A stretch of DNA of 39,599 bases from a virus: the IMG/VR virus record IMGVR_UViG_3300043331_001576, positions 1 to 39,599 of that record; one strand, written 5' to 3'. Both the position numbers and the translations under genes were made by a program. Position 1 is the stretch's first letter; every line of letters begins with the position of its first letter. This document shows, one piece after another, positions 10,499 through 39,599 of this stretch. The notes beneath the pieces were generated by a model. That model was not told where the DNA came from. It saw only the letters and a list, made by a program, of their open reading frames with translations, and ran no database searches.

Positions 10499-13400
10499 CT
10501 AGCGCACTCCCACCGGCACGAGCTCCTCTACGGGCCTGAGCCCGCCCGTGCCCGGCTCATCAAGCGGCGTCAGCCCGCTGTCCTCGTCCTCCTCCGCCGG
10601 AATCAGGCCGGTGCGCCGGTAGAAGGCCGGGCTGTAAAGGTCGGGGAACCAGCGTTCCAGCTCCTCCTGGTGCTCGAGGAGGTACTCGTCGTAGGCCGGG
10701 TTGAGCGCCGCCTCGCGCTTCTTCGCCGAGCGCAGGGTGTCGTACCAGTTGTAGAGCGCCGGGCGCCCGCGCCGCTGTGCCAGCATCTGCGCGACCTCGC
10801 GTTCGGTGTAGTCGCGGCGCTCGGCCTTTTCCAGGCGGGCCGTCTCGTCCGGCACCTCGCCGAAGACGAAGCGGTCGATCTCACGTGCCTGCTCGACGGA
10901 GACGCCTTTGTACTTCGGCACCGTGCGCCTGAGCCTGCCGTAGAGGTCGGAGGCCTCGCGGAACTCCAGCTGGAGCGGCGTCAGGTTCTTCGTGATCACC
11001 GCCTGCGCCTCGCGCTGCTGCCCGGGCGTGAGCCCGCGGAGAGCCGCCTCGCGGGCGTCGAAGAAGCGGTCCCATTCGATCTCCCGCGTGGCCTCGTCCA
11101 TGTAGCTGTCGGGGCTCACCGCGAAGTAGCGGTCGAGCGCCGCCTGCACCGGCTGGCTCTCGGCGTCGGTGTCGCGGTCGAACGCAGGAGCGTCTGCGAA
11201 GACGCTCCTGCGTATGGCGGAGATCTCCCCGGCCCGCTCGCGGTTGTTCTCCTTCCACGTCTCGACGTCCATGCGACCGGCGGCGAAGGCCCTGTCGTCG
11301 AGCGCCTGCTCTTCACGCAGGGCCTGCGTGTCGTCGGCGAACTTGTCCTGCAGCCCCTGCAGCTCGTCGCCGCGTTCGCGCTGCCTGCGGTCGATCTCCT
11401 CCGAGAGCGCAGCGATGGCCGGGTCCAGCTTCGCCCGCTCCCTCTCGCCCGCGTCCAGATCGAAGTAGTCCTTGCCGAAGTGGTCCCGCGACCACTGGTT
11501 TCGCCGCTCCGAGGGGCTGGACTCGTAGAGCGAGTGTCCGAAGAACTGGCTGACGCCTGTAAGCGCCAGGTCTTTCACGTCGCTGGGCTTCTTCTCCCCC
11601 GTGCGGACGGCGCCGGAGACGGAGCCCAGGGAGAGCGGCACGAACGTCTCCGCCGCGTACCAGGCCGAGCGCGCGAACTGCTCGGCAGCGCTGCCCTTGC
11701 GGATGCGCCGGCCCAGGTAATCCTCGTTGCGGTAGAGGTCGTATGGCGTGCGCACGATCGGTGCCAGCTTGCCCTGGGTCCAGCGCGGGACGCCGGCGAA
11801 CGGCACCGGCACCGGCGAGCCGAACGCCCGGCGCGGCAGTATTGCCCGGATGAACGAGCGGAAGGGTCCGCCAATCGGGACGTAGCGGTTGCGGCCCAGC
11901 GCTACCGAGAGGAAGCGCGGCGAGTTGATGTTCAGAGTCCGCTTCACGGCTTCTTCGGGCGAGTAGCCGGAGGCGATGTACGACACCATGCCTGCCATTG
12001 CGAGCATGGAGGCAGCGGAGAGGCCCCGGTAGACCGCCAGCTGCTCGCGGCCGGAGAGCGAGTGCCAGCGGCGGGCCGGGTTCGGACTCCGGTGCGCGAT
12101 GAGCTTTGCCGTCCCTGCCGCGAAGTCTTTGGCCAGGCCCGCGGGCGCCGCGTAGAACGACGGCGAGATGATCGGCCCGCGCTCGATCTTGGCCCGCAGC
12201 GTCGAGACGCCGCGCTCGGCGGGGTTCAGTGCGGGCATGAACTTCGAGGAGAAATTAGCGGCCTCGGCGTCGGCGACGTTGTCGCTCATCTTCGGGTTGA
12301 GCCACTTGAGGAGCGCCCGGTCCTGCTTCCAGAGGTTGTAGCGCAGCACTTCGACGCCGCCGATGATCCGCCTGTTGAGCGGACGCGCCGGCGGCAGACG
12401 TTCGATGCCCTGGCGGGAGCGCCGGAACTCCTGGCCGATCTCACCAAAGGCGCGGCCCGTCGCCTCCGTGTAGCGTTGCACGAGATCGGCCTCGGCCTGG
12501 GCGATCCGCGCCACCTCGCTGCCGTCGAGCAGCTCCTTAACGACGCCCCGGAGGCTGCGTGCCGTGCCCAGGGGGTTGAAGAGCGCGGCGAAGAAGCCCT
12601 GCTGCGCCGTCAGCGGCCCGAAGTCGGCGGCGAAGGTGAAGAGGCGCGCCTCGTCGGCGGCGTCGAGTGCCCAGTTGACGGCGCTGATGTTGGACTTCGA
12701 TAGGAGCACCTGGTCGATGTCCGCGGCAACGTCCGCCAGGTGGTAGCGGTAAGTGTGCTTTGAAAGCACGTAAGGTTCGAGGTTCGCGGCCTCGTAGGCG
12801 CGCAGCAGCCGTGCGAGCCGGGGCGCCAGCTTATCGGCCTCCGTGCGCAGCAATTGCAGCGTGATGCCGAGGTCCGCCGTGCGCGCCTTCGTCCGCAGTA
12901 GCTGCGACTCCAGGACGCGCGCCCGCCGCTCGATCTCGCGCGCCTGGCCGGAGAGGAAGGAAAGCTCCGGCCCCCATTCCTCGCCAAGCGCATCGATGCG
13001 GGCGTAGACCGGGGCCGTCCGGCGCTCCTCGCGCGCCCGCAGCCGCTCCAGCCTCTCTCGCACTCTCGCGCCAGAAGCCAGGCGCGTCTCTGCCCGTTCG
13101 ATCTTCTGCCTCAGCTCGGCCATCCGCCGGCGGGCATCGTCGCGGGCTTCGCGAAGCCCAGGGTGAACGATATCGATGGCCTCGACGCGCGTCAGGCCCT
13201 CGGTGCCGCGCTTGAACACCTCGCCGCCCGCCATATGCGCGAGCGCCCGGTCGTGGATCGCCGTCAGCTCGCGCAGGTCTGTCTCCGCGCGCCAGCCCGG
13301 GTGGCGGCGAAAGCGCTGGTAGGCGCCCTCGTAGTAGCGCGTCTTGGCGCGGGCGCCGGAGCCGGAGACGCCGGCCGCGTGGTAGCCGTCGGCGATGCGC

Positions 13401-16400
13401 TGGATCGCGTCGTCGACGTTGTCTTTGGCCTGCACCGTCGCCAGGTAGACCCAGCCTTCCTTGTCGACGTCAAAGGGCAGGATGTCGACGCCGAAACGCT
13501 CCCGGACGTGGTTCAGGATGCGCATCGAGATCGCGTCGTAGACCCGCTTCGCCCGGTCCATCTCGGCGGTGACGCCGGCGTAGTGCTCGGGGTTATCGAA
13601 GAAGTCCTTAAGCGTGTTCTTGAACGGGTTGTCAGCGGGGCCGCTGTACCGGGGCCGAAAGTTCTTCCAGGCGTCCTCCAGGGCCGTAAGCGATGCCTCG
13701 CGCATCGCGGCGAAGCGCGTCTCCAGACTCGCGATCGCAGCCTGCCGGGCCGTGTAAGAGGGGACGATCACGTCCGCCTGCCGCACGTTCGGGAAGATCG
13801 TCGAGAGCAGGTGGCTCAGGCCTGGGACCTGCGTGAGCTTGCCGGGCCTGCGGATGACCTCCCGCTTCGACTCCAATAACCTGTCCGCTTCGTCGTAGCC
13901 GAGCTCGGCGATATCGTCGCGCGGGGGCCGCCTGGGCGGCTCGGAGCTGGCAGAGGGCGGCGCTGGGGGGTCTCGCGGCGGCGGCGCCGGTCCTTCCCCG
14001 GAAGGACCGGCGCCTGCGCGGGCGGTGGACCGCGGTGGCTCAACTATTTCTGTTCGGCGGACCCGGAAGCCCAATCCCGAAAGGTCGGGACCGGCCTCCC
14101 TGAGCTCCGCCTTGAGGGCGTTTACCTCAGTGATTAACCGCTGGATGTCGGGGTCGTTTGGGTCGTACCCGGGCCGTGATGTAGCGGCAGCCAGTTCAGC
14201 GTCGAGCCGCTTTATCCTCTGAACCAGCGTCTCGTCCTCGAAGCCCGGCATCGCTGCGCCCGCGGTCGGACCATCCGGCGGCGGCGGGGGTCCTTCCAGG
14301 GAAGGACCGGGCGGCTCCGTAATGCCCTGCTGTGCCCGGAAGGCCCGGAGTACGTCCTCGTCGGCGGCCGCCAGCTCCGCCTCGATGCGGGCCTGCTCCC
14401 GCCGGGCCAGGTCCGCCGTCTGTTCCGCTGCAGAAGCGTCCGCAGCCGTCGCGGCGGGCGATTTCGCGAGCCGCCGGGCGTGGCGCTGGGCGCTGATGGC
14501 TGCGTTTCGCTGTTTCTCCAGCTTCGTGCGCGCCTTCGTCGCGGCGGCCAGCACTTCGAGGATGCCGCCGCGCTGGCCGCCCAGGTCCTCGAAGCCGGCG
14601 AACGCCCGTGTAGCCTGCGCCATCTCCCACTGTGCGCCAAACTTCTCGATGGTCTCGCGGAGGGCCGACTGCGTCGGGCGCTGGCCCTTCGGCCCGTCTG
14701 CGATGCGCTTGAACCAGGCCGCTGCCTCTTCCTCAGAGACGCCGTAGAGGCGGCGGGCCCGGCCCAGCTCACGGGCGAACGGTTCGAGGGTTGGCTCGGC
14801 TGTCACCCTGTCGATCACCTGGCGGCCCATGCGGGCGGCGTCGGCGTAGCCGTCGACTTCGCCGGGCGTCATGCGCAGACGGAGGGCGACCTCGTCCGTG
14901 TCGGCGCCCATCTCGAAGGCGCGCTGGACGGCGCGCACCTTCTCGCGGTAGTTGGGGAGTGCCGTCTTGAAGTTGGAAGCGTCGGCCTCGGCCACGATGC
15001 GCGCCAGCTGGTCCGGGTCGCGCAGGTCGGCGTTGACGACGTAGACCGGCATCTCGGCGCCAGCGCCTTTGACGCGCCGGAACGCCTCCGTCCGGTGGTG
15101 GCCGCGGTAGACGATGTATTTGCCGCTCTCGGGGTCACGGACGACGTGCGGGGGCTCGAACTCGGCGTCGTCCCAGGCGCGCACCAGCTCATCGACGCGG
15201 CGCTCGCCGAAGGCAGAGCCTGCGTCGGCGTCGCGGGCCTGGAAGAGCTCCGGCCGCATCTCGACCTCGCGCACGGGCACCGTCGTCAGCTCGCGGCTGA
15301 ACGAGCCGCCGTCGATGTCTGGCGGTGGCGGTGCGCCACGCTGGCCCAGGCGTCCGAGGTCAGATGCGCCGAGGTCCGGCGGCCCGCCTTCTAGCGGCAT
15401 GCCGTCGGGGCGCGTGAAGCCGCCAAAGGGCTCGTCCGTGATAGCGGTAACTTCTTCTTGCGTCGGAAGGCGCCCCTCCGGTTCCGGCTCGGGCGCTGCC
15501 TGCGCTGTCGGCGGCCGGCTGGGCGGCTGGCCGGCACCGCCTGCGCCCTCTGCGGCTGGACGTGGTGCACCCGCGCGGCTTTCCAGCTCGGCAAGATACC
15601 GCTTCTCGTTAGCGTTCAGCCTTGCGGTTTGCTGGTTGGTGCGAAGGTCGCGCAAAATCGTCTGCTCGGCAGGCGTCAAGGGTGGCCCTGCCGCCTCACC
15701 TTGCCGGAAGAGCGGGCCTGCCGTTTCGGGTGCAAGTCCACCGCCGCCCTGGCCCTCGAACATGGCCCCCTGCTGCTCACGGATGCCGCCGATCTCACGC
15801 TCCGTGGCGAACGTGTCCTCCTCGACCACCTCGCCCTGCTCCGTCATGCGGGCGCGCCGGACGGTGGCGTCGGCTGGTGTGTTAGGTGCGCGCGAGAGGT
15901 TGCGGATGCTGTCCCTGCGAAGCGCCATCGGGTTTCCTGTCTTGATCTCGTAGACAGACACCCACTCCGGCGTAAAGTGGTAGGCGAAGCCCTCCTTCTC
16001 TGAGCCATTGCGGGCAATCCCGCGGACATGATCGCCCTCCTGGACAGGATCGCCGCCGTATCCCCCCCGCTCCTCGCGCAGCACCCGCTGTGCCATCGCC
16101 CCGATGCCCCCTTCGCGCTCGCCGTCGATGCCCTCGGTTCCGGATTCAGTAAAGCCGCCCAGTTCCTGCTCCTGCTCGTCAGGGATCGTGCGCGGCGCTC
16201 GGTCTGCGTCGTTCTCTTTGAACAGACGCTCGACGGCGTCGTCGTCGAGACCCATCCTCCTCAGGTCCGCCGTAATCTCGGCATCAGTCTTGCCGGCGGC
16301 GCCGACGCCGAAGTCGATCGCCGCCTCGTAATCGCCGGCCGCCATCGTCTCGTTGTAAAGCCGCGTAAACGTCGCCTGGACATCCATCGGGTCGTACTCC

Positions 16401-18643
16401 CCGGACGGTTCGGCCGCAGACGCCGGCCCTCTGCTCGGGCGGGGGCCGCTCAGCCTTCCGCCGCGCTGACCACGGACAAGCACCGTCTCGCCGGCCTCAC
16501 GGAGCCAGGCCACGAGATCGCCCGTCATGTGCAGGTAGGGCACGAACTCTTCTTCCATCCGGCCCCCGATATTCCACTCCCCGAGAGGGTGGTCGAGGTG
16601 TTGGCCGGCCTCCCTGAAAACCTGGGCGGCGCGGCGCGCGTCGTCGCCGACGAGGGCGAGGTCGCCCTGGGTCATTTCGATGACGATCAAGGCGTCTGGG
16701 TTCCGTCGCTTGGCTGCCTGCCAGACGACATAGGCGTCCTTGACGCTCCCCGGCGCCGGCAGGGGGGCCGTCCTCGCCTCCGTCACCCCAGGCGTCTGTT
16801 GCGCGACCCCTGAACGGGCCGCCCAGTGGCGGTAGACCTCGGCCATTTGCTCCTGAAGGGCGCGGTATGCCGGGGAGTCCGGCGGCAGCCTGTCAATGCG
16901 CCGTTCGAGGGCAGCAAAGCGGTCGGACAGCTCCTGTCTGTTCATCAGGCGCAAGGCATCGGCAGGATCAACCCGGAGCTCGCCGGCAAGAGCTCGCTCC
17001 AGGATGTCGCTGTCGAAGATGAAGCGCACTGGCGTGTACCCGCTAATTCTATTTGGTTCGCTGGGCGATCGCGGCACTCCGAGCCGGTCGAGGACGCGGG
17101 TGAGCTGCGTGTTTACTACTGTTGGTTCGAACACCGCGTCCGGGTTGGCGCGGGCGATGTCGCGTACGACGCGGACCACTTCGGCCAGGTTGCTGACGGG
17201 GCGCGGACCTCCCTCGGGCGCAAAGCCGCCGCCGAGGGAGAGGCGGTCGTTTATGTCGCCCAGGTCGATAGCGTACCGTCCTGTCGGGTTCCGGTAGACG
17301 AGGATGTCCGTCCCGGCGACTGCGGCTTCGAACCCATCCCTTCCTAGCGGCTTGAACTGAGTGGGCAGGCGAAGGCCGATGGTGTTGGGCTCGCCCATGG
17401 CCAGGTTCGCCCGCCCGCTCACGCGGAGAGGCTCCGGCTGGGCAGGCCTTAATCTCGGCGGGATGCCGTAGAGCGTGTCGAGCATGACCGGCGCCCGCCC
17501 TATAGCTTCGATATCGACGCCGCGCGGGATCAGCGCCCGGCCCGGGCCCGTCTCGGGGATGGCGCGGATGGCGCGGCCGCCCGCCCCGAGCGCGGTCGCC
17601 GCCGACGGCGCTACCGCGTATCCGCCCGCACCACCGCCTAAGCCCGCAGCCACCGCCCCTGCTAGTTGCACTTCGGAGGGCAAGTCGGTCTCGGCCAGCC
17701 CCGCGCTCGTCAGCCGAGCGGCCGCTTCGCCGCCGGCAAGAGCACCACCGCCCCGCAGCAATACGTTCCCCACGGACGGGCCTTGCGTCGCGGCCAGCAC
17801 TCCACTCTGCTCCAGTGCCTCGACAGGCAAGCCTCGCTCCACCGCTCGCGCAACCGCGCTCTTAAGTCCCTGTCGCTTCAGCGCCGCCGCGAGGCCCGTT
17901 GTAAGGCCCACCGGCAAGGCGGCAGCTTCGGCCAACGACACGCCGCCGATTGGCTTCGTGCCCGGCAGCGGCTCGTCCACCGTCGTCAGGTCGCGCAGCA
18001 CGGGCGCGTCGACGAGCGAGAAGGCGTGCGGACGGCCGATGTCCCAGCCGGGCAGCTCACCCAGGTTCTTCGTCGCCGTTGAGCGCGCCAGGTCTTCGGG
18101 CTGCGCCAGCGCGATCGCCCGCCGCTGGTAGTCGCGGAGGCCGCCCTGGCCCGCTTCCACCTCGCGGATGGTGGCGCCCAGCACCGGCTCCAGGCGCGCG
18201 CGGTTGATCGCGAACAGCTCGTCCACGTAGCCCGGCGGCTCCGACTCCGGCGCCATGTCCGGCGGGAAGCTGTAGAACTCGCCCGGACGTCGGCTCGGGA
18301 TAACCGTCGGCGCGGGCGCCGGACCGAGCGGCGGCAGGGCTCTTAGCGCTGCCTGCTGCCTCGCCTGCGCCTGCTGGAACGTCTCGCTTGGCAGTTGCAC
18401 GCCGAGCAGGGGTTGCGGCACCGGTGTGAGGCGCGGCGCCCCCGTGAGCGGCCCGAAGCGTTCCTCGCGCGTCCGGCTCCTGAGCGGCGGGACGGACGTG
18501 CTGGCGCCGAGGGGCCCGAGGCGTTCCTCCGCCGTCCGGCTGCGCAGCGGCAGCGGCCGCAACTGGCGCCGCTCCTGGCGGTTGCGGGCAACGGTGGCCC
18601 CGCTGCCGAGACGGTAGCGGAAGATGCGCCTGGGTGCTGGCAT
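10499..18643 (-). CDS. Giant polyvalent / ejection protein, about 2,714 aa, with MutS-I-like and ParB-like domains
   Basis: ATG 18643 is the best start (MPAPRRIFRYRLG); a TTG at 18682 would add 13 residues over the previous stop. Residues 1-130 are Pro/Arg-rich, with two copies of LRSRTxEERxGPL. A Gly/Ala-rich hydrophobic patch lies near 330. Residues about 633-723 resemble MutS domain I (DAYVVWQAAKRRNPDALIVI). An SH3-like stretch follows near 900. Residues about 1118-1280 form a ParB/Srx-type domain with YRGHHRTEAFRR. Coiled coils lie near 1380-1530. The last 1,100 residues are helical, with a membrane-like GLSAASMLAMAGMVSYIASG near 2210 and a segment recalling large-polyvalent-protein-associated domains (KWLNPKMSDNVADAEAANF near 2115). 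Lying between portal-region and scaffold genes, it is probably packaged and delivered with the DNA. Confidence 0.85.
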   Translation of the reverse strand: MPAPRRIFRYRLGSGATVARNRQERRQLRPLPLRSRTAEERLGPLGASTSVPPLRSRTREERFGPLTGAPRLTPVPQPLLGVQLPSETFQQAQARQQAALRALPPLGPAPAPTVIPSRRPGEFYSFPPDMAPESEPPGYVDELFAINRARLEPVLGATIREVEAGQGGLRDYQRRAIALAQPEDLARSTATKNLGELPGWDIGRPHAFSLVDAPVLRDLTTVDEPLPGTKPIGGVSLAEAAALPVGLTTGLAAALKRQGLKSAVARAVERGLPVEALEQSGVLAATQGPSVGNVLLRGGGALAGGEAAARLTSAGLAETDLPSEVQLAGAVAAGLGGGAGGYAVAPSAATALGAGGRAIRAIPETGPGRALIPRGVDIEAIGRAPVMLDTLYGIPPRLRPAQPEPLRVSGRANLAMGEPNTIGLRLPTQFKPLGRDGFEAAVAGTDILVYRNPTGRYAIDLGDINDRLSLGGGFAPEGGPRPVSNLAEVVRVVRDIARANPDAVFEPTVVNTQLTRVLDRLGVPRSPSEPNRISGYTPVRFIFDSDILERALAGELRVDPADALRLMNRQELSDRFAALERRIDRLPPDSPAYRALQEQMAEVYRHWAARSGVAQQTPGVTEARTAPLPAPGSVKDAYVVWQAAKRRNPDALIVIEMTQGDLALVGDDARRAAQVFREAGQHLDHPLGEWNIGGRMEEEFVPYLHMTGDLVAWLREAGETVLVRGQRGGRLSGPRPSRGPASAAEPSGEYDPMDVQATFTRLYNETMAAGDYEAAIDFGVGAAGKTDAEITADLRRMGLDDDAVERLFKENDADRAPRTIPDEQEQELGGFTESGTEGIDGEREGGIGAMAQRVLREERGGYGGDPVQEGDHVRGIARNGSEKEGFAYHFTPEWVSVYEIKTGNPMALRRDSIRNLSRAPNTPADATVRRARMTEQGEVVEEDTFATEREIGGIREQQGAMFEGQGGGGLAPETAGPLFRQGEAAGPPLTPAEQTILRDLRTNQQTARLNANEKRYLAELESRAGAPRPAAEGAGGAGQPPSRPPTAQAAPEPEPEGRLPTQEEVTAITDEPFGGFTRPDGMPLEGGPPDLGASDLGRLGQRGAPPPPDIDGGSFSRELTTVPVREVEMRPELFQARDADAGSAFGERRVDELVRAWDDAEFEPPHVVRDPESGKYIVYRGHHRTEAFRRVKGAGAEMPVYVVNADLRDPDQLARIVAEADASNFKTALPNYREKVRAVQRAFEMGADTDEVALRLRMTPGEVDGYADAARMGRQVIDRVTAEPTLEPFARELGRARRLYGVSEEEAAAWFKRIADGPKGQRPTQSALRETIEKFGAQWEMAQATRAFAGFEDLGGQRGGILEVLAAATKARTKLEKQRNAAISAQRHARRLAKSPAATAADASAAEQTADLARREQARIEAELAAADEDVLRAFRAQQGITEPPGPSLEGPPPPPDGPTAGAAMPGFEDETLVQRIKRLDAELAAATSRPGYDPNDPDIQRLITEVNALKAELREAGPDLSGLGFRVRRTEIVEPPRSTARAGAGPSGEGPAPPPRDPPAPPSASSEPPRRPPRDDIAELGYDEADRLLESKREVIRRPGKLTQVPGLSHLLSTIFPNVRQADVIVPSYTARQAAIASLETRFAAMREASLTALEDAWKNFRPRYSGPADNPFKNTLKDFFDNPEHYAGVTAEMDRAKRVYDAISMRILNHVRERFGVDILPFDVDKEGWVYLATVQAKDNVDDAIQRIADGYHAAGVSGSGARAKTRYYEGAYQRFRRHPGWRAETDLRELTAIHDRALAHMAGGEVFKRGTEGLTRVEAIDIVHPGLREARDDARRRMAELRQKIERAETRLASGARVRERLERLRAREERRTAPVYARIDALGEEWGPELSFLSGQAREIERRARVLESQLLRTKARTADLGITLQLLRTEADKLAPRLARLLRAYEAANLEPYVLSKHTYRYHLADVAADIDQVLLSKSNISAVNWALDAADEARLFTFAADFGPLTAQQGFFAALFNPLGTARSLRGVVKELLDGSEVARIAQAEADLVQRYTEATGRAFGEIGQEFRRSRQGIERLPPARPLNRRIIGGVEVLRYNLWKQDRALLKWLNPKMSDNVADAEAANFSSKFMPALNPAERGVSTLRAKIERGPIISPSFYAAPAGLAKDFAAGTAKLIAHRSPNPARRWHSLSGREQLAVYRGLSAASMLAMAGMVSYIASGYSPEEAVKRTLNINSPRFLSVALGRNRYVPIGGPFRSFIRAILPRRAFGSPVPVPFAGVPRWTQGKLAPIVRTPYDLYRNEDYLGRRIRKGSAAEQFARSAWYAAETFVPLSLGSVSGAVRTGEKKPSDVKDLALTGVSQFFGHSLYESSPSERRNQWSRDHFGKDYFDLDAGERERAKLDPAIAALSEEIDRRQRERGDELQGLQDKFADDTQALREEQALDDRAFAAGRMDVETWKENNRERAGEISAIRRSVFADAPAFDRDTDAESQPVQAALDRYFAVSPDSYMDEATREIEWDRFFDAREAALRGLTPGQQREAQAVITKNLTPLQLEFREASDLYGRLRRTVPKYKGVSVEQAREIDRFVFGEVPDETARLEKAERRDYTEREVAQMLAQRRGRPALYNWYDTLRSAKKREAALNPAYDEYLLEHQEELERWFPDLYSPAFYRRTGLIPAEEDEDSGLTPLDEPGTGGLRPVEELVPVGVR
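13983..14014. repeat. Dispersed palindrome, copy 2 (extended)
   Basis: The core GTCCTTCC-CC-GGAAGGAC extends to perfect 15-bp arms (13983-13997 and 14000-14014). It is in the giant gene and encodes GPSGEGP within a disordered Pro-rich linker. Confidence 0.92.
14290..14307. repeat. Dispersed palindrome, copy 3
   Basis: GTCCTTCC-AG-GGAAGGAC, perfect arms. In the giant gene, encoding GPSLEGP in a Pro-rich linker about 300 bp from copy 2. Confidence 0.9.
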
Positions 18644-18647
18644 TCGC

Positions 18648-20201
18648 TTAGCCCCGGTAACCGAACCTCGTGCCGGCGGCAAGGCCGACTGGCGTCACGT
18701 CGCGGATCTTGCGCAGGAACTCGTTGGCGCTCATGGCGCCGCCCCCGGCGTAGTGGGAGAGGATCAGGTCCTGGATATCCGGGGGCAGGGTGCCGAAGCG
18801 GTAGGCGAGCTGGTCCGGGTCCTGGAGGGTGACGCCGAAGACACGCGGCCGGTCGCTCAGAAGGTCGTAGGCGGCGGCATCGCCCGCGAGCGGCGCCTGG
18901 CCGTAGATCGACTGAAACAGCAGGTCGCCGGTCGTGTCGTAAGCCTGGGCCTCCAGCGTGCCGGCGCCGCGACCGAGCGCCAGCTCGGCCTCCGCTTCGA
19001 ACTGTTCGGCGAGCGCTGTCTCGCCGCGGGCGCGGGCGGCGCTGGCCTTGCGCTGAAGACGGAGGGCGTCGATGCCGCCGCTGTAGCGGCGTGCGCGCCG
19101 GGGGTCAGGCTGGCGCTCGGGGACCGGGTATTGTCCAGTCGCTGCGGGGCGAGGTTGTCCCTTTAACGGGCCAGGCTGACGGCCCCGGTTGCGGACCTCT
19201 GCCGGGGTCGAGCCCGGGGCGAAGCTGCGGGCAGGCCCGCCAGGGCGGGCAGGCGTGACGCCCTGAAAGCGGCCGCCTCTCACGCTCACGATCTCGGGGC
19301 GTCCCTCCTCGCCGACGAGGATGTTCTCGTTGGTGACGGGGCCTATGCCCTTTGCGGCCGTGGCCGTGATGGGCAGCGGTTGGACGGCGGGGACGGCGCG
19401 GATCTCGGGCAGGATGCTCTCGCGGAAGGTGCGGAGCGCGCCTTCGACGGGCGTGACGCCGCCGCGCACGCCGAGGATGTAAGCGGCCTGCCGGTAGGGG
19501 TCGGTGATGCTCGTCGCTGTGTCCAGGTAGCTCTTCGCGAGCTGGCGCAGGCCGAGTTCGCGGTCGATGTCCTGACCGCGGACGCCGGCGTTGTAGTCGA
19601 GGTTGGTCGCACGGCGGCTCTCGGCCAGCGTCTCGTTGTACTGGCGGACGCTCTCGGGATTGGTGTAGGACGGGTCGGCGGTCGTCTGGAAGATGCGGCC
19701 GTTCTGGTCGACGAGGCCGTAGAGGCCGGGGGCGATCTGGCGCACCTCGCTGATGTAGCTGGCGCCCTGGTCGGCCATCACCTCGCTCGACCCGTCGGAG
19801 TAACGCACCTCGATGTAGCCGTGGCCGATCGGTTGCACGCCGGCGACGGAGACCGGCGGCGAGGGCGCCGACGCGGCCGCGCCGGTCCGGCGGCCGGAGC
19901 TGCCGCCGCTGCCGCCTCCGCTCCTGCCCCCCGGGCCGGCGGACGGTCCTTCCGGGGAGGGGCCGGGGGCGTCCACGAAGGAGCCGGAGCCGTCGGCGAA
20001 CACCTCGATGTAGTTGCCGTCTTCGTCCACGTAGATACCGGGTTCCTCGGCGTAGGTTCCTGCCGGGAAGTCGCTGCCCTGGCTGGGCGGGCCGGGCAGC
20101 GTTCCCGGCGCCTGGCCGCTCTGTCGCGGCACGTAGCCGCGCCTGTCGGCGTCGTAGATCAGGTTCGGGTTCGTCGGGTGGGGCTCGCCGTCAGCTGGCA
20201 T
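18648..20201 (-). CDS. Structural / ejection-associated protein, 517 aa
   Basis: ATG 20201 with GGAG upstream gives MPADGEPHPTNPNLIYDADR, overlapping the previous gene by 11 nt; the frame upstream of it is not protein-like. Residues 1-120 are Gly/Pro/Ser-rich with an acidic beta motif (GIYVDEDGNYIEVFADGSGS). A second beta motif follows (GYIEVRYSDGSSEVMADQGA, near 130-150), then a helical middle (residues about 170-280) and a helical C-terminus. The mix of disorder and short beta repeats, and its place between portal and giant genes, suggest a virion or ejection protein. I do not recognise the family. Confidence 0.65.
   Translation of the reverse strand: MPADGEPHPTNPNLIYDADRRGYVPRQSGQAPGTLPGPPSQGSDFPAGTYAEEPGIYVDEDGNYIEVFADGSGSFVDAPGPSPEGPSAGPGGRSGGGSGGSSGRRTGAAASAPSPPVSVAGVQPIGHGYIEVRYSDGSSEVMADQGASYISEVRQIAPGLYGLVDQNGRIFQTTADPSYTNPESVRQYNETLAESRRATNLDYNAGVRGQDIDRELGLRQLAKSYLDTATSITDPYRQAAYILGVRGGVTPVEGALRTFRESILPEIRAVPAVQPLPITATAAKGIGPVTNENILVGEEGRPEIVSVRGGRFQGVTPARPGGPARSFAPGSTPAEVRNRGRQPGPLKGQPRPAATGQYPVPERQPDPRRARRYSGGIDALRLQRKASAARARGETALAEQFEAEAELALGRGAGTLEAQAYDTTGDLLFQSIYGQAPLAGDAAAYDLLSDRPRVFGVTLQDPDQLAYRFGTLPPDIQDLILSHYAGGGAMSANEFLRKIRDVTPVGLAAGTRFGYRG
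19945..19964. repeat. Dispersed palindrome, copy 4 (degenerate)
   Basis: GGTCCTTCC-GG-GGAGGGGCC: the left arm is intact and the right arm has diverged. It encodes GPSPEGP in the disordered N-terminal part of the 517-aa protein. Confidence 0.7.
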
Positions 20202-26307: not shown

Positions 26308-27468
26308 CTAGTGTATCGCGGCCTCCTCCCGGTCAAGCGGCTTTTGAGCGGTTAATTGTTGGCGTCTGTGATCGGGCATCTCGTCCCACGTCCGCCCGTC
26401 CAGGAGCCGTCCGCCGGACGTAGGCCGAGGACCGCCCCACTGCTTGAAGAAGAAGGGGACGCCTGCGGCCTGGCACTGGTCGCGCAGCGAGCGCACCCAG
26501 GCGAGCGCTTCCGGCTTCGGGCGGTAACCCGTCCCCTGACAGGCGTAGCACGGGATCGCGTTGTTGATGTTGCCGTCGCTGTCCATGACGACAGCGATGC
26601 AGTAGACGCCATCCTCAAGGCGCCGGCAGTCGTGGGCGACGCAGCGCTCCACCAACGCTCGCCCAGCCGGTCCCGCCGACTCGCCGCCGGCGATCACCCA
26701 GTCGATCAGCGCCGGCTTTAACTGCTCCATCTCATAGACCCCGCGCAAACCGAGCCATCTCCGCAGATCCAGCGGCCCTAGCAGTGGCTCGCAGGACAGG
26801 AAGCGCAGCGCCGCCGGCGTTTCCAGCAGCAGCGGTATCCGCTCGTCAGCGAAACGCTGGTTCTCGACCGTGACGCCGAGCCAGACGTTCGGGAGCGGCC
26901 ATGTGGGATACCAGCGCCATCCCTCCATCCAATCAAACGTCGGCCACGCCGCTCCCGGCGGCGGCGCACCATCAACACCCGATGCCTTTGCCAGTTCTTC
27001 GAGGTAGGCAGCGAAGAGCTGGCCCCGCCCGCTTGGGTGCGCCTTACGTGTCGCCTCCGGCCCCCGTACAAGCTGCGGCTCTCTAGGCTCACCGCTGAGA
27101 TCAGACCAGCGGCGGACAAAGTCCAGCATCCGCTCAGGACGCTTCGTCAGCACCTGGTATGTATGCTCAGGGGTGCGCGCCATAGTCATCCAAAGCCACG
27201 CGATCAAACCGTCCGGCACGTCCTCGTGGAAGGTGTCGGAGAGGGAGTTCACGAACACCAGGCGGGGCTTCTTCCAGCGGAGAGGCAGTGTCAGGCGCTC
27301 AGGGAGCAACTGAACAGGGATACGCCCTCTCTCGAACCGCAGGCCCTTCATCCGGTAGGGCGGAGTTCTGGAAATGTAACAGTTGGCGCAGCCGGGGCTA
27401 ACCTTCGTGCAGCCGTAGACGGTGTTCCAGGTCGCATCCGTCCACTCGATAGCGCTCCTGTCACTCAC
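26308..27468 (-). CDS. Phage Gp37/Gp68 family (DUF5131) protein, 386 aa
   Basis: The N-terminus SDRSAIEWTDATWNTVYGCT with following CxxxxxGCANCY cysteines (residues about 20-31) is the signature of the Gp37/Gp68 family, radical-SAM-like TIM-barrel proteins of unknown reaction that in some genomes pair with a three-Cys-motif partner. Other matching elements are FVNSLSDTFHEDVP, VLTKRPERM, WLGVTVENQ, FLSCEPLLGPLDL and FFFKQWGG. An insert near 310-325 carries CYACQGTG. The GTG start at 27468 overlaps the ancestral methyltransferase stop as GTGA. The longer in-frame reading to 27591 is a deletion scar, not part of this protein. No partner gene is seen nearby. Confidence 0.88.
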   Translation of the reverse strand: MSDRSAIEWTDATWNTVYGCTKVSPGCANCYISRTPPYRMKGLRFERGRIPVQLLPERLTLPLRWKKPRLVFVNSLSDTFHEDVPDGLIAWLWMTMARTPEHTYQVLTKRPERMLDFVRRWSDLSGEPREPQLVRGPEATRKAHPSGRGQLFAAYLEELAKASGVDGAPPPGAAWPTFDWMEGWRWYPTWPLPNVWLGVTVENQRFADERIPLLLETPAALRFLSCEPLLGPLDLRRWLGLRGVYEMEQLKPALIDWVIAGGESAGPAGRALVERCVAHDCRRLEDGVYCIAVVMDSDGNINNAIPCYACQGTGYRPKPEALAWVRSLRDQCQAAGVPFFFKQWGGPRPTSGGRLLDGRTWDEMPDHRRQQLTAQKPLDREEAAIH

Positions 27469-27591
27469 GCGAACCGCCCCCTCAACTCCCGCCACGCAAA
27501 CGCTGCCTGGGCGGGAACGACCGCATTTCCCGAGGTCGAGTCCGCCCGCGCCGGTGCAGACGCTAAACACCCGGAAGGCACGATTAGCCAC
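27465..27591 (-). pseudogene. Deletion remnant of a DNA cytosine-5 methyltransferase
   Basis: From GTG 27591 the frame reads MANRAFRVFSVCTGAGGLDL, which contains motif I (the S-adenosylmethionine site) of C5 DNA methyltransferases. From about 27530 another frame reads GNAVVPAQAAFAWRELRG, which is the C-terminal motif X, ending at the TGA 27465-27467 that overlaps the DUF5131 start. All intervening motifs, including the catalytic PC and ENV motifs, are missing. The two ends are joined near CTCGGG. The simplest reading is an internal deletion of several hundred bases. A collapsed assembly is the alternative. Confidence 0.75.
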
Positions 27592-31952: not shown

Positions 31953-32297
31953 TCACATTGACGAGACTGGCAGACCTCCCTTCCCGGCCCTTGACCTACC
32001 GTTTTCAGAGCCGGAGGCCGCACCCGAGTCTGGTCGCCCCTTCGGGTGCGGGGAGGAGGTTTCGCCCCGCGCGGAGAGGAATTCCGGCGCGGCCTCCGGA
32101 CCTGAAACTGTCGTCTGTGTCCTGACCCACTCTTCGAGCGCCGACACCGGCACCCGCACCGAGCGCCCGATGCGCACGCTCGGCAGCTCGCCCGAGCCGA
32201 CCAGCGCCCAGACCTTGTTCCGGTTGACCTGCAGCGCCTGCGCCACCTGCGGCACCGTCAGCAGGACGGGGCCAACGCTGATGTCCTCGCTAGCCAA
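31953..32297 (-). CDS. xis: Excisionase-family HTH protein, 114 aa
   Basis: The TTG start at 32297 has AGGAGG about 7 nt upstream. Residues 12-60 are a winged helix-turn-helix typical of phage excisionases (LLTVPQVAQALQVNRNKVWA, then VRIGRSVRVPVSALEEWV). It should bind next to attP arm sites and steer the integrase toward excision. The last 50 residues are low complexity and encoded by a nested inverted repeat (31999-32110); typical family members end near residue 62. It lies just after the Cro-like gene under the leftward promoter. Confidence 0.82.
   Translation of the reverse strand: MASEDISVGPVLLTVPQVAQALQVNRNKVWALVGSGELPSVRIGRSVRVPVSALEEWVRTQTTVSGPEAAPEFLSARGETSSPHPKGRPDSGAASGSENGRSRAGKGGLPVSSM
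31999..32110. repeat. Nested inverted repeat in the excisionase tail
   Basis: Outer arms about 32000-32021 and 32089-32110 pair over most of 22 bp (core CCGGAGGCCGC / GCGGCCTCCGG). Inside, CACCCGA (32021-32027) pairs with TCGGGTG (32042-32048). It would form a large folded RNA or cruciform. Confidence 0.65.
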
Positions 32298-32526
32298 CAG
32301 GGGCCTCCTGCGGCGCGTCGGCGATCAGCTCGTCGATCGTGACGGGCTGCCTGCCGCGACGCAGTCTGTCCGTGTAAAGCTCGACCAGCTCCCGCATCTT
32401 GGCGATCCTCATCTCATCCTCGCCCCGTTCAAAGCGGCTCAGGTGACCGAGGGTCAAGCTGGTCGCGCGGCAGACATCCATCAGCGACATTCCGGCCTGT
32501 TCTCGGAGCGCTCGTGCTTTCCTCAA
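32290..32526 (-). CDS. Cro-like XRE-family regulator, 78 aa
   Basis: I use TTG 32526, which has GGGAGGG 4 nt upstream. The first ATG at 32553 would lie upstream of the transcription start predicted from the leftward promoter. The HTH is LREQAGMSLMDVCRATSLTL, then GHLSRFERGE, followed by a helical region. As first gene of the leftward lytic operon, opposite the repressor, it fills the Cro position. It overlaps the excisionase start by 8 nt. Confidence 0.8.
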   Translation of the reverse strand: MRKARALREQAGMSLMDVCRATSLTLGHLSRFERGEDEMRIAKMRELVELYTDRLRRGRQPVTIDELIADAPQEAPVG

Positions 32527-32553
32527 GTAGCCCTCCCTCAACTGATGAAGCAT

Positions 32554-32685: not shown

Positions 32686-33204
32686 ATGAGTGAATTAGGT
32701 AAGTATCTTCGGCGTTGCAGAGAATCGGCTGGACTGACACAATCCCAGGTCGCACAGCGCCTGCGTCCCCTGACCAACGAAGAGATCGCCACCTGGTACG
32801 TGAACAAGGTGGAAACCGGCAGGATACGGCAACCAGACATCGCGCGGCTGAGACCGATGGCCGATGTCGTAGGCGCCGACTTCAGCGAGGCTTTGAGGCT
32901 GGGTGGCTATCCCGGCTATCAGATGGAAGCGCCGGGCGATGGCCTGCCACCACTGATTCGAGGCCGTCTGACTACCCTTTCAACAGAAGAACTAGAAGCC
33001 CTCGATGAACTGTGGCCGGCGATTGAGGATCTGCTGAAACGGGCCGTTGACCTCAACAAGAAGAGACATTTGGGTATTGCGTCAGCCGCTAATAACTCGG
33101 AAACTGAAGACGCGCTCGCAGGGCGGGCGCCCTGGGTGAGGAAGGCAGCGCGGGAGCAGGGTAGTGGTGGAAGAAAGCTCGCCGGAAAAGGGACCAGCTC
33201 GTGA
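32686..33204 (+). CDS. XRE-family phage repressor, 172 aa
   Basis: The first plus-strand gene of the lysogeny operon. Residues 5-68 form a helix-turn-helix (LGKYLRRCRESAGLTQSQVA, then WYVNKVETGRIRQPDIARL). The C-terminal part has no S24 peptidase motif (no Ser/Lys pair like the LexA family), so SOS-type self-cleavage is not expected. A helical segment (TEELEALDELWPAIEDLLKR) may mediate oligomerisation. ATG 32686 has AGGG upstream and fits the predicted promoter. The coding region is less GC-rich than its neighbours. Confidence 0.82.
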   Translation: MSELGKYLRRCRESAGLTQSQVAQRLRPLTNEEIATWYVNKVETGRIRQPDIARLRPMADVVGADFSEALRLGGYPGYQMEAPGDGLPPLIRGRLTTLSTEELEALDELWPAIEDLLKRAVDLNKKRHLGIASAANNSETEDALAGRAPWVRKAAREQGSGGRKLAGKGTSS

Positions 33205-33382
33205 CCCCTATATCCGCTTCTATGAGGCGGCGCTCGCCGTCCTCGATAACCCGCCGCCGCCGCCGGCGATGTGGATCCTGACCGAGCTTCTGCTCAGCAC
33301 CCGGGAGGCAATGGATTGGGCGAAGCAACTGCAGAACGCAGAACACTCCCCCGGCGCTGGTACTTCATCTTCGCCGCCCTGA
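33164..33382 (+). CDS. Small ORF overlapping repressor and cargo gene, 72 aa
   Basis: GTG 33164 lies in the last codons of the repressor with GGGAGCAGGG upstream. It begins MVEESSPEKGPARDPYIRFY, then has a helix, a PPPPP turn and another helix (MWILTELLLSTREAMDW). Its end overlaps the next gene by 67 nt. Likely translated as a link between the two; the function is unknown. Confidence 0.55.
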   Translation: MVEESSPEKGPARDPYIRFYEAALAVLDNPPPPPAMWILTELLLSTREAMDWAKQLQNAEHSPGAGTSSSPP

Positions 33383-33972
33383 TCGCCCTATTCGTCTTAG
33401 CTGTCACCGCTCAGGCCTCGGGTTCCCAGCCGGTCGGAGATACGGACTGCAACGGACAGATCAATGCGGTCGACGCGCTGCGTATTCTCCGCCACAGTGC
33501 CGGCCTCTCCAACATGACCGTGGACGAGTGCGGCGCCATCGGCAACCGGCCCGCCTCTCTCTACTGGTTCAGCCGTAGCCACGGCGGCGCCGTCTTCATC
33601 TACGCGCCCGGCCTCTCGTGCCACCAAACGGGCTTCTTCGACTACCAGGCGTTCTGCACGCACGCGGCGGGCGGCTGGGGGTTGGACTGCGCCACTTCGG
33701 GGGACAGGACCGATTGCACGCACACCCGGGACGGGGCTTTCACCTGCGATCGCACCTTCTGTAACGGCTCGGTCTGGAGCGGAAGCTGCACCGGCAACTT
33801 CCCTGATGACTGCGAGCGAACCGATGGTTTCGGGGTTCGCACCGCGAGCTGCGCCTGGTCGATCAATAAGACCGACACCGGAGAGGTCGCACAGTGCACC
33901 CACGGCGCGGCCAGCTTCGAATGCATGCTCACTTCTACCAACAACGTCCTTCTTTGGGAGTGCGGCGGATGA
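33316..33972 (+). CDS. Secreted Cys-rich protein with dockerin-like module, 218 aa (lysogenic cargo)
   Basis: TTG 33316 has GGGAGG 7 nt upstream; a longer reading from 33271 lacks this. Residues 15-32 are a signal peptide or TM (WYFIFAALIALFVLAV, with AQA as a possible cleavage site). Residues 41-64 are a single dockerin-type calcium loop (GDTDCNGQINAVDALRILRH). From 85 on there are about 18 cysteines in short Gly/Thr/Asp-rich repeats (CATSGDRTDC, CDRTFCNGSV), suggesting an extracellular disulfide-rich domain. It sits inside the repressor-integrase operon, so it should be made by lysogens and presented outside the cell. The integrase ATG overlaps its TGA. The function is unknown. Confidence 0.75.
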   Translation: MGEATAERRTLPRRWYFIFAALIALFVLAVTAQASGSQPVGDTDCNGQINAVDALRILRHSAGLSNMTVDECGAIGNRPASLYWFSRSHGGAVFIYAPGLSCHQTGFFDYQAFCTHAAGGWGLDCATSGDRTDCTHTRDGAFTCDRTFCNGSVWSGSCTGNFPDDCERTDGFGVRTASCAWSINKTDTGEVAQCTHGAASFECMLTSTNNVLLWECGG

Positions 33973-35081
33973 CGAAACGCCGGCGCGGCCACGGCGAAGG
34001 GTCAGTCTTTCAGCGAGCGGACGGCCGCTGGGTGGCCCGCGTCAGCGTCGGCTACGCCAAAGGTAAGCGCCAGCGGCGCGACTACTACGCCGGCACGCAG
34101 CAGGAGGCGCTCCGGAAGCTCGCCCAGGCCAGGCGTACGCTTGATGATGGCCTGCCACTTCCCGACGAGCGCCAGCGGGTCCGGCAGTTCCTGGAGAGCT
34201 GGCTTGAGGACGTGGCCAGGCGGACGGTCCGCCCGAGCACCTACGTACGTTACCGGCAACTCCTCGTCATTCACGTCATGCCGGAGATCGGGCGGCACCC
34301 ATTAAAGGCTGTCACGCCCCAGCTCCTGCAATCGCTGTACGCGCGGAAGGAGGAGGAGGTATCGCCCAGGACGGTGGGCCACGTACACCGCCTCCTCCAC
34401 CGGGCCTTCGCCGATGCCGTCGCCTGGGGGCTCATGGTGCGGAATCCCTGCGGGTTGGTGAAGCCGCCGCGGGTGCCGGCAACGGAAATGCAATCACTCA
34501 CCGCTGACCAGGCCCAGGCACTCATGGAAGCCGCTCGTGGCGACCCGCTGGAAGCGTTCTATCTGCTCGCCGTAACGGCTGGCCTGCGGCTCGGCGAGCT
34601 GACCGGCCTGCACTGGGACGATATCGACCTGGGCGACGGCACGCTCCAGGTCCGGCGCACGGCGCGGCGAATTGGAGGGAAATGGAGTGAATGGGAGCCA
34701 AAGAGCAAGGCCAGCCGCCGGCGCGTGCAGCTGAGCGGCGTCGCTATCGCTGCTCTTGGTGCGCATCGGGAAGGCCAGGTCGTGAGATCGCTGCAAAACC
34801 TGGTGTTCACGAGCCCGGGCGGCGGCCACGTGGACCCGTCATGGCTGATGAAACGCTCGTTCCGGCCGCTCCTCGCCCGTGCCGGCCTTCCTCGCATTCG
34901 CTTTCACGATCTGCGGCACACGGCGGCCTCGCTGCTGCTTGTGAAGGGGGTGCACCCGAAGGTTGTCCAGGAGATCCTCGGCCATAGCGGGTTCGCGATC
35001 ACGATGGACACCTATAGCCATGTAGCGCCCCACTTGCAGCAAGAGGCGGCGGACATCATGGACGCACTCTTCAGACGCTAA
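33969..35081 (+). CDS. int: Tyrosine integrase, 370 aa
   Basis: A full-length phage integrase. It has an N-terminal arm-binding domain (RRGHGEGSVFQRADGRWVAR), a SAM-like core-binding domain (about 65-165), and a catalytic domain with R207 (TAGLRLGEL), a Lys near 245-247, H313 and R316 (FHDLRHTA), H339 (GHS) and nucleophile Y349 (MDTYSH). ATG 33969 overlaps the cargo gene stop (ATGA). attP lies directly downstream. It should insert the circular genome into the host tRNA-Trp gene. Confidence 0.96.
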   Translation: MTKRRRGHGEGSVFQRADGRWVARVSVGYAKGKRQRRDYYAGTQQEALRKLAQARRTLDDGLPLPDERQRVRQFLESWLEDVARRTVRPSTYVRYRQLLVIHVMPEIGRHPLKAVTPQLLQSLYARKEEEVSPRTVGHVHRLLHRAFADAVAWGLMVRNPCGLVKPPRVPATEMQSLTADQAQALMEAARGDPLEAFYLLAVTAGLRLGELTGLHWDDIDLGDGTLQVRRTARRIGGKWSEWEPKSKASRRRVQLSGVAIAALGAHREGQVVRSLQNLVFTSPGGGHVDPSWLMKRSFRPLLARAGLPRIRFHDLRHTAASLLLVKGVHPKVVQEILGHSGFAITMDTYSHVAPHLQQEAADIMDALFRR

Positions 35082-35190: not shown

Positions 35191-35237
35191 CTCTCCAAAA
35201 CCGCAGGTCGGGGGTTCGAATCCCTCCGCCCCTGCCA
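35191..35237 (+). other. attP: attP core: 3' half of a tRNA-Trp gene
   Basis: The sequence follows a bacterial tRNA-Trp from the anticodon loop (CTCCAAA, anticodon CCA at 35195-35197) through the variable loop, the T arm (GGGGG-TTCGAAT-CCCTC) and acceptor strand CGCCCCT, to G and CCA at 35235-35237. The 5' half is absent: bases before 35191 do not pair with the anticodon stem. This is the usual form of a tRNA-targeting attP, in which integration restores an intact host tRNA. Confidence 0.92.
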
Positions 35238-35338: not shown

Positions 35339-35536
35339 ATGAAAGGCCAGGGGGGCACGCTGACGTTGGACGACCAGATCGTCCCCTTCCTTGCCGCCCT
35401 CTCTGACGACCACTTCTACGGCGTCGTCACCCTCACCTACCACAACGGCATCATCAAAGAGGTCGATGTCCACGAGAAGTACCGCCTCGCCGAGCAGGTC
35501 CGGCGCGCCGTGAAACGCTTGCTCCTCGGCTCCTGA
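35339..35536 (+). CDS. YezD / DUF2292-like small protein, 65 aa
   Basis: The core FYGVVTLTYHNGIIKEVDVH followed by EKYRL fits the short beta-beta-helix pattern of the YezD family (xxGxVxLxxxxGxIxxVxxxExxR). The family function is unknown; members in hosts often sit near sulfur or oxygen-responsive genes, which need not apply here. It lies just beyond attP on the integrase strand, the usual site for lysogenic cargo. Confidence 0.6.
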   Translation: MKGQGGTLTLDDQIVPFLAALSDDHFYGVVTLTYHNGIIKEVDVHEKYRLAEQVRRAVKRLLLGS

Positions 35537-36788: not shown

Positions 36789-36998
36789 TTACGTGAGGGG
36801 AGTGGCGAGGCTGCCGCGCCGGATGTGGATGCGCTCGGTGCGCGGCAGGTCGCAGGTGCGGTTGTGGGCTGCGATCCAGGCGTCGATGTCGCCGTCCTCG
36901 TAGAGCGTGCAGAACGTCTTGCAGGACCAGCAAACGGCGCTCGGCCGGCTGTGGCTGGTCCCTGGGCCGGGGGTGTAGTCGGGGCGTTCTTCGCTCAC
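36789..36998 (-). CDS. Small Cys-containing protein, 69 aa
   Basis: GTG 36998 overlaps the recombinase stop (GTGA). It contains CWSCKTFC near 23-30 and a later C near 49 with a His before it (AAHNRTCDLPRTERI), a possible zinc site. The function is unknown; coupled to the recombinase. Confidence 0.6.
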   Translation of the reverse strand: MSEERPDYTPGPGTSHSRPSAVCWSCKTFCTLYEDGDIDAWIAAHNRTCDLPRTERIHIRRGSLATPLT

Positions 36999-37585
36999 TG
37001 CCCCTCTACTATACGCCGGAGCTGGCCGGGGACGGCGTGCAGGTAGACGCTCGTTGTGGAGATGTTGGCATGGCCCATCTGCTGACTGACGACGTGCAGC
37101 GGCGCCCCGCGGTTTAGCATCTCCGTCGCCCAGCCGTGGCGCAGCTTGTGCGGCGTGCAGCGGCTCTTCGGGATGCCCAGCCGCTCGCGCAGCTTCTGCA
37201 TTACGAGCTGGACGGCCCGCGTCGAGAGCGGATAGCCGGAGGGGCCGGGGAAGACGTAAGGGGAGCTGGAAGTGGAGCCGCTTATCAAAGGTTCGGGCGG
37301 TTTCCTTAAATAACGGCGCTCCAGCACGGCCTCGACCGGCGCGAGGATGTCAACGTAGCGCTCGACGTTGCCCTTGCCGGTGATCTGCAGCTGCAGCGCC
37401 TCCAGGTCCACCTGCTCCCAGCGCAGGGAGACGGCCTCGGAGACGCGAAGGCCAGCGTAGCGCATGGTGACGAAGAGGTCGCGGTAGAGCTCGGAGGGGG
37501 CGGCGTCTAAGAGGCGCTGGTACTCGTCGTCGCGGGTCGGGTGGACGGTCTTCCTTCCGCGTCCTTCCCGCGAAGGACGGGCCAT
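36995..37585 (-). CDS. Minimal tyrosine recombinase (catalytic domain only), 196 aa
   Basis: XerC/D-like catalytic domain: R47 (YAGLRVSEA), K71 (GKGN), H146 and R149 (HKLRHGWAT), H172 (GHANIS) and Y181 (SVYLHA). The N-terminal arm and SAM-like domains of ordinary integrases are missing. It lies at the end of the late operon, right after the holin-like gene, and is separate from the lysogeny integrase. It could resolve genome multimers or invert or excise a segment. A palindrome copy forms part of its first ten codons. Confidence 0.9.
   Translation of the reverse strand: MARPSREGRGRKTVHPTRDDEYQRLLDAAPSELYRDLFVTMRYAGLRVSEAVSLRWEQVDLEALQLQITGKGNVERYVDILAPVEAVLERRYLRKPPEPLISGSTSSSPYVFPGPSGYPLSTRAVQLVMQKLRERLGIPKSRCTPHKLRHGWATEMLNRGAPLHVVSQQMGHANISTTSVYLHAVPGQLRRIVEGQ
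37561..37578. repeat. Dispersed palindrome, copy 9
   Basis: GTCCTTC-CCGC-GAAGGAC, 7-bp arms. It encodes RPSREGR at the N-terminus of the minimal recombinase. Confidence 0.8.
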
Positions 37586-39259: not shown

Positions 39260-39599
39260 GCCAGATACCCCGACGCCAGTAGTGCCTCGATCTCCGACGG
39301 CAACAGCCCCGCGTAGGCCAGCCGGTAGCCGTTGCCCGTCACCGACTCGTACCCTTCGTTAAGAGGCGTCGCCGGGTCGTCTTGCGGGTGGTGCAGCCCC
39401 AGCGTGTGCAGTATCTCGTGCAGCGGCGCCGTCCTCGCCGTCACGTTCCAGACGGTGCGCGGGCGAGGCTCCCCTGGCGGGTGTATCCGCCCCTGCATAT
39501 CGGGCTCCATCGGCCAGCCCCGCGCCAGCAGCTCCTCCGGCGTCACGCCGGCCATCACCCAGGGCCGCGTCCCCACCGACGCGCAGGCGCCCGCCGCCT
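39256..39599 (-). CDS. Metzincin-like zinc protease, C-terminal part (continues at 500-1)
   Basis: The active-site motif HEILHTLGLHH fits HExxHxxGxxH, the three-His zinc site and catalytic Glu of metzincins (residues about 195-205 of 248). The preceding strand (TVWNVTARTAPL) is typical, but no clear Met-turn follows; the next residues are PQDDPATPL. It ends SEIEALLASGYLA. The apparent start at 39576 is only an internal GTG: across the join the frame extends to GTG 500. Possible roles are cleavage of host surface protein or virion maturation. Confidence 0.85.
   Translation of the reverse strand, partial: AAGACASVGTRPWVMAGVTPEELLARGWPMEPDMQGRIHPPGEPRPRTVWNVTARTAPLHEILHTLGLHHPQDDPATPLNEGYESVTGNGYRLAYAGLLPSEIEALLASGYLA
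39503..39599. repeat. Right copy of the 97-bp terminal direct repeat
   Basis: Identical to bases 1-97; the protease frame continues through it. Confidence 0.97.

Follow-up and report, generated by a model that had tools for sequence, protein, structure and literature searches.

Two described systems come close to the locus reported here. Streptococcus thermophilus phage TP-J34 has its ltp gene flanked by int and the CI-repressor genes, and this gene is transcribed in the prophage; its product, the lipoprotein Ltp, blocks DNA injection, and superinfection exclusion by it has been proven by experiment (PMC3952083). In Thermus phages IN93, Tsatsa and Riverbug, the region between LexA and the integrase is variable, exported proteins have been noted there, and defence and superinfection exclusion have been proposed as the role of this slot (PMC11437467). 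In our own comparison, Thermus phages with integrases 33–37% identical share a gene order of divergent regulator, repressor, cargo, integrase and tRNA site. In this slot, Lalka8 and Lalka27a carry a protein of 217 aa with a signal peptide, Riverbug a membrane-anchored protein together with a restriction gene, and Tsatsa a lipoprotein with WD40-like repeats together with a HEPN gene. The slot is empty in Cumys and phiMa and is therefore marked as accessory, its content being variable or absent among comparison phages whose relatedness extends only to integrase and gene order. We herein describe a 218-aa protein encoded in the corresponding slot of another phage.

The DNA analysed is a stretch of 39,599 nt, hereafter called the window. 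Its ends form an exact direct 97-nt overlap (1–97 and 39503–39599), and because these nucleotides are identical, we regard the phage genome as complete and circular, with a length of 39,502 bp (~39.5 kb). The phage is temperate, that is, capable of dormancy, with a predicted lysogeny operon on the + strand, while the structural and lysis genes are carried on the − strand, opposite to the gene of interest. The operon contains a 172-aa repressor recognized by its HTH family match (HTH_31/HTH_3; 32686–33204), a 72-aa ORF (33164–33382), the 218-aa gene (33316–33972) and a 370-aa tyrosine integrase, likewise recognized by family match (33969–35081). These four + strand genes overlap in turn, by 41 nt between the repressor and the 72-aa ORF, 67 nt between the latter and the 218-aa gene, and 4 nt between the 218-aa gene and the integrase. 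From the repressor start to the integrase end, neither a promoter-like site nor a + strand terminator-like site was detected, and no RNA was found in the region with Rfam. Facing the repressor on the − strand are a divergent Cro-like HTH regulator (32290–32553; HTH_31, 1.8e-7) and an HTH_17 excisionase-like protein (31953–32297; 3.5e-14), an arrangement also present in Thermus phages Riverbug and Cumys. Downstream of the integrase, a 45-nt stretch (35193–35237, +) matches the 3′ end of annotated tRNA-Trp genes and represents attP; the window contains no whole tRNA gene, and this stretch has no exact match in prokaryote genome contigs or IMG/VR. Just past attP, a small DUF2292 protein (35339–35536, +) shows the strongest codon bias among the ORFs scored.

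The gene at 33316–33972 is real. The ORF proposed for it in an earlier, sequence-only reading is intact, with both ends as given there. Its TTG start at 33316 follows a Shine-Dalgarno sequence, GGGAGG, at 33303–33308 with 7-nt spacing; an alternative GTG start at 33271 has no such site upstream. Codon usage prefers this frame (+32.6 bits, versus −65 and −123 for the other + frames and −17 and −6 for antisense ORFs), weakly so over the C-terminal portion (0.09 bits per codon). The gene had also been placed between repressor and integrase with overlapping codons. It does lie on the same strand between the two and shares an ATGA overlap with the integrase, but its direct upstream neighbour is the 72-aa ORF, the repressor ending 112 nt before the TTG start. 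The 72-aa ORF has its own Shine-Dalgarno site (GGGAG) and good codon usage outside the overlaps (+0.49 bits per codon), finds no match in protein family searches, and is a possible partner of the 218-aa cargo protein. A frameshift fusing the two was set aside, because the 218-aa gene has a well-spaced Shine-Dalgarno site of its own.

The locus resembles the Thermus variable region (IN93, Tsatsa, Riverbug, Lalka8; PMC11437467) in its gene order, related integrase, tRNA attachment site and exported slot cargo, whereas several of the Thermus cargos are lipoproteins or are accompanied by nucleases. The Thermus slot proteins have no detectable sequence similarity to the 218-aa protein. We fetched 80 related-integrase loci from IMG/VR; in the whole set, comprising these, the fetched phage loci and the window, a same-strand repressor-like HTH gene stands upstream of the integrase at 42 loci. 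An N-terminal hydrophobic stretch occurs in 14 of 51 slot ORFs versus 44 of 668 ORFs elsewhere (odds ratio 5.4, p = 1.4e-5, the window itself omitted), an enrichment to be read as support rather than proof, because ORF calling was crude, some of the loci are related to one another and the repressor may have been misassigned in places. The survey suggests that, where an integrase of this type is present, the slot is enriched in exported proteins, so that new genes for superinfection exclusion or surface conversion can be sought by position even if they resemble no known ones. The 218-aa protein, itself an orphan, gains a testable function from its slot. Among the IMG/VR phages, uncharacterised slot lipoproteins or membrane proteins in L059, L060, L083, L092, L018 and L057 are superinfection-exclusion candidates in their own right.

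The N-terminal export signal, read from the translation as MGEATAERRTLPRRWYFIFAALIALFVLAVTAQA-SG, occupies residues 1–34 (33316–33417, +) and bears out the earlier claim of a signal peptide or transmembrane segment. It consists of an Arg-rich n-region and a hydrophobic segment, WYFIFAALIALFVLAVTA (18 mostly hydrophobic residues), and ends in VTAQA-SG, of which AQA-SG is a possible signal-peptidase I site; no lipobox Cys is present in the signal. The AlphaFold model of the whole protein (pLDDT 41) is confident only in the signal helix at residues 13–34 and was used for that helix only. Behind the signal, residues 41–61 (33436–33498, +), GDTDCNGQINAVDALRILRHS, form an F-hand calcium loop and the helix that follows it, as supported by motif, profile and model comparisons. 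The one calcium loop claimed previously, GDTDCNGQINAVDALRILRH, was found and is the sole such motif in the six frames of the window. Within the loop, DTDCNGQINAVD, D/N ligands stand at positions 1, 3, 5, 9 and 12, as in type I dockerin (PF00404) loops, and position 4 is a Cys. A loop lacking the calcium-binding geometry was to have told against the idea; since the ligands (D1, D3, N5, backbone 7, N9, D12) are spaced as in F-hands that bind calcium, this objection does not arise.

Residues 77–218 (33544–33969, +) form a Cys-rich domain with 12 Cys, a net charge of −6 and a weak two-fold internal repeat, which scores 50 versus 30 ± 5.6 in shuffles (4 of 500 shuffles reach 50). The whole protein contains 14 Cys, at 45, 72, 102, 114, 125, 134, 144, 149, 158, 166, 179, 194, 203 and 216, of which 13 follow the loop's own Cys; by this count, the figure of about 18 downstream cysteines given earlier was too high. 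Even so, Cys makes up 6.4% of the 218 residues versus 0.66% in the other genes of the phage, a tenfold difference (binomial p = 3e-10), and 14 Cys is more than in any of 520 stop-free stretches of 218 aa. The mature product is acidic (net −9, pI 4.8).

Searches with the whole protein gave no homologue in IMG/VR, in phages or plasmids (these two by tblastn) or in 84,980 prokaryote genomes, and distant relatives may have been missed, because the IMG/VR and prokaryote genome searches rest on exact short peptides. Nothing exceeded the cut-off in Pfam, NCBIfam, PHROGs or PADLOC, known Sie proteins included; Fer4_11 and DUF5671 in Pfam fell below the cut-off and were judged compositional. Searched against plasmids, the loop region gave weak unrelated matches only. 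As single queries in IMG/VR, the integrase and the terminase retrieved no close relative, the terminase having distant relatives only. The 218-aa protein is a sequence orphan but of a known kind, an exported cargo in a lysogeny operon.

That the protein acts as exported lysogeny cargo in general is likely. As to its specific job, superinfection exclusion comes first, because the same slot elsewhere holds exported proteins, some of which are known or suspected to bar rival viruses; by analogy with these, we assign this function tentatively, with a little less than even confidence. The sequence-only reading had already entertained a block to superinfection, which we judge reasonable in light of the exported proteins in the slot of related phages (PMC11437467) and the experiments on Ltp (PMC3952083). 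Proteins of the superinfection-exclusion class (Ltp-like, HK97 gp15-like) are exported or membrane-anchored, and the 218-aa protein has a predicted signal sequence. Its gene is probably expressed together with the repressor, as its position in the sequence suggests, and lysogens should produce the protein, judging by the gene order, the overlaps and the parallels. A transcript from the repressor promoter would run through the repressor, the 72-aa ORF, the 218-aa gene and the integrase; the protein would be exported via its N-terminal signal, would fold outside the cytoplasm, where its F-hand would hold calcium and as many as seven disulfides could form, and would remain at or near the membrane. 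There it would most likely hinder related phages in entering the cell, in the manner of TP-J34 Ltp.

The likeness to Ltp lies in the position among repressor genes and integrase, the exported product, the repeat domain outside the membrane and the accessory (moron) character. On the other hand, the activity of the lipoprotein Ltp has been demonstrated experimentally, whereas the 218-aa protein, known from sequence alone, has no lipobox and carries an F-hand and many Cys. Against exclusion, the searches gave no homologue of known function. Slot proteins of other phages are for the most part lipoproteins or cross the membrane once, and the 218-aa protein may be released after cleavage; furthermore, a cargo carried in this kind of slot can also benefit the host. 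A more specific proposal, in which the protein represents a new superinfection-exclusion family, held at the surface by a calcium-stabilised half-dockerin while its disulfide-rich repeat domain blocks phage receptors or DNA entry, appears doubtful.

Superinfection exclusion is most likely, with lysogenic conversion for the benefit of the host ranking next. In the latter case, the product would be exported and serve as a surface or adhesion factor, perhaps of host origin, that alters attachment or the envelope without blocking phages. An exported, acidic, Cys-rich product of an accessory gene within the lysogeny operon would suit such a factor, and F-hand modules are frequent in secreted cellular proteins. 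However, the slot proteins of other phages occur alongside defence genes (HEPN, restriction), and the sampled host genomes contain no homologue, so that we consider host benefit somewhat unlikely. DC-type loops make a member of the Chloroflexota one conceivable host.

The loop could also belong to a dockerin that tethers the protein to the host surface through cohesin-like proteins there, as had been suggested. As a single sequence, the 41-aa loop region matches solved dockerins at E values of 8e-4 to 0.08, and a profile built with 13 viral loop sequences does so at 1e-10, true dockerins dominating that profile. The model of loop plus helix reaches a pLDDT of ~86, and its top Foldseek matches are dockerins, none of them significant; this structural match is partly circular, because the model alignment was selected on the motif. 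In common with type I dockerins (PF00404), the protein has an F-hand loop in which every calcium ligand position is present, and a helix comes after it. Unlike them, it has no second F-hand, which was also absent from an alignment with two-hand dockerins, and its F-hand is attached to a domain rich in Cys rather than to an enzyme. Pfam Dockerin_1 scores 11.9–15.8 bits versus a cut-off of 22.9 and spans positions 2–23 of 57, that is, one F-hand of two. Having one F-hand instead of two and scoring below the Pfam cut-off, the protein falls outside the usual definition of a dockerin. With the Cys at loop position 4 as a further departure, attachment to cohesin-like proteins is unsupported, and we regard dockerin tethering as improbable.

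Exact DNA patterns for the Cys-4 loop have no other match in IMG/VR, which holds for those exact patterns only, and a general dockerin-loop pattern occurs there in at least 119 stretches; none of the fetched loci bearing general dockerin loops has a related integrase. Among the fetched viral loci, a small set, the best match of the loop region is a standalone secreted protein of viral contig L124 (12337–12714; E = 6e-8), likewise small and exported, with GDVDKNGVVNIIDAL...VGL...C; in contrast to the 218-aa protein, it has two F-hands, passes the Pfam cut-off and lacks the Cys-rich tail, and no related integrase was found in its record. A dockerin-type loop (GDIDNNGTVNAVDAL) is also present in a 136-aa protein adjoining phage tail genes (L159 10289–10696, and also in L134, L166 and L212).

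The remaining explanations fare less well. A secreted toxin or inhibitor directed against competing bacteria and retained by lysogens would agree with a small, exported, disulfide-rich product, but there is no toxin family match and no recognised immunity gene apart from the unexplained 72-aa ORF, which makes a toxin quite improbable. Phage structural proteins can hold dockerin-type motifs, as beside the tail genes in L159, yet a virion or lysis protein placed here by chance is very improbable for a product with an export signal, encoded within the repressor-integrase run on the strand opposite to the structural and lysis genes. Hardly any weight is given to a degenerate or unexpressed ORF, for which the missing homologues, the TTG start and the weak C-terminal codon bias would speak, against a strong, well-spaced Shine-Dalgarno site, a long intact frame, a signal peptide, an even number of Cys, an intact F-hand and tight overlaps.

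Several other features of the genome deserve mention. Besides the integrase, the phage encodes a second, short tyrosine recombinase of 196 aa with the catalytic domain only (36995–37585, −); the Thermus Lalka phages have a second XerD-like recombinase too (PMC11437467). A DUF5131 protein is located at 26308–27591 (−; Pfam 2e-79, phrog_2045), and a single ORF of 2727 aa, very long for a 39.5-kb phage, extends over 10499–18682 (−).
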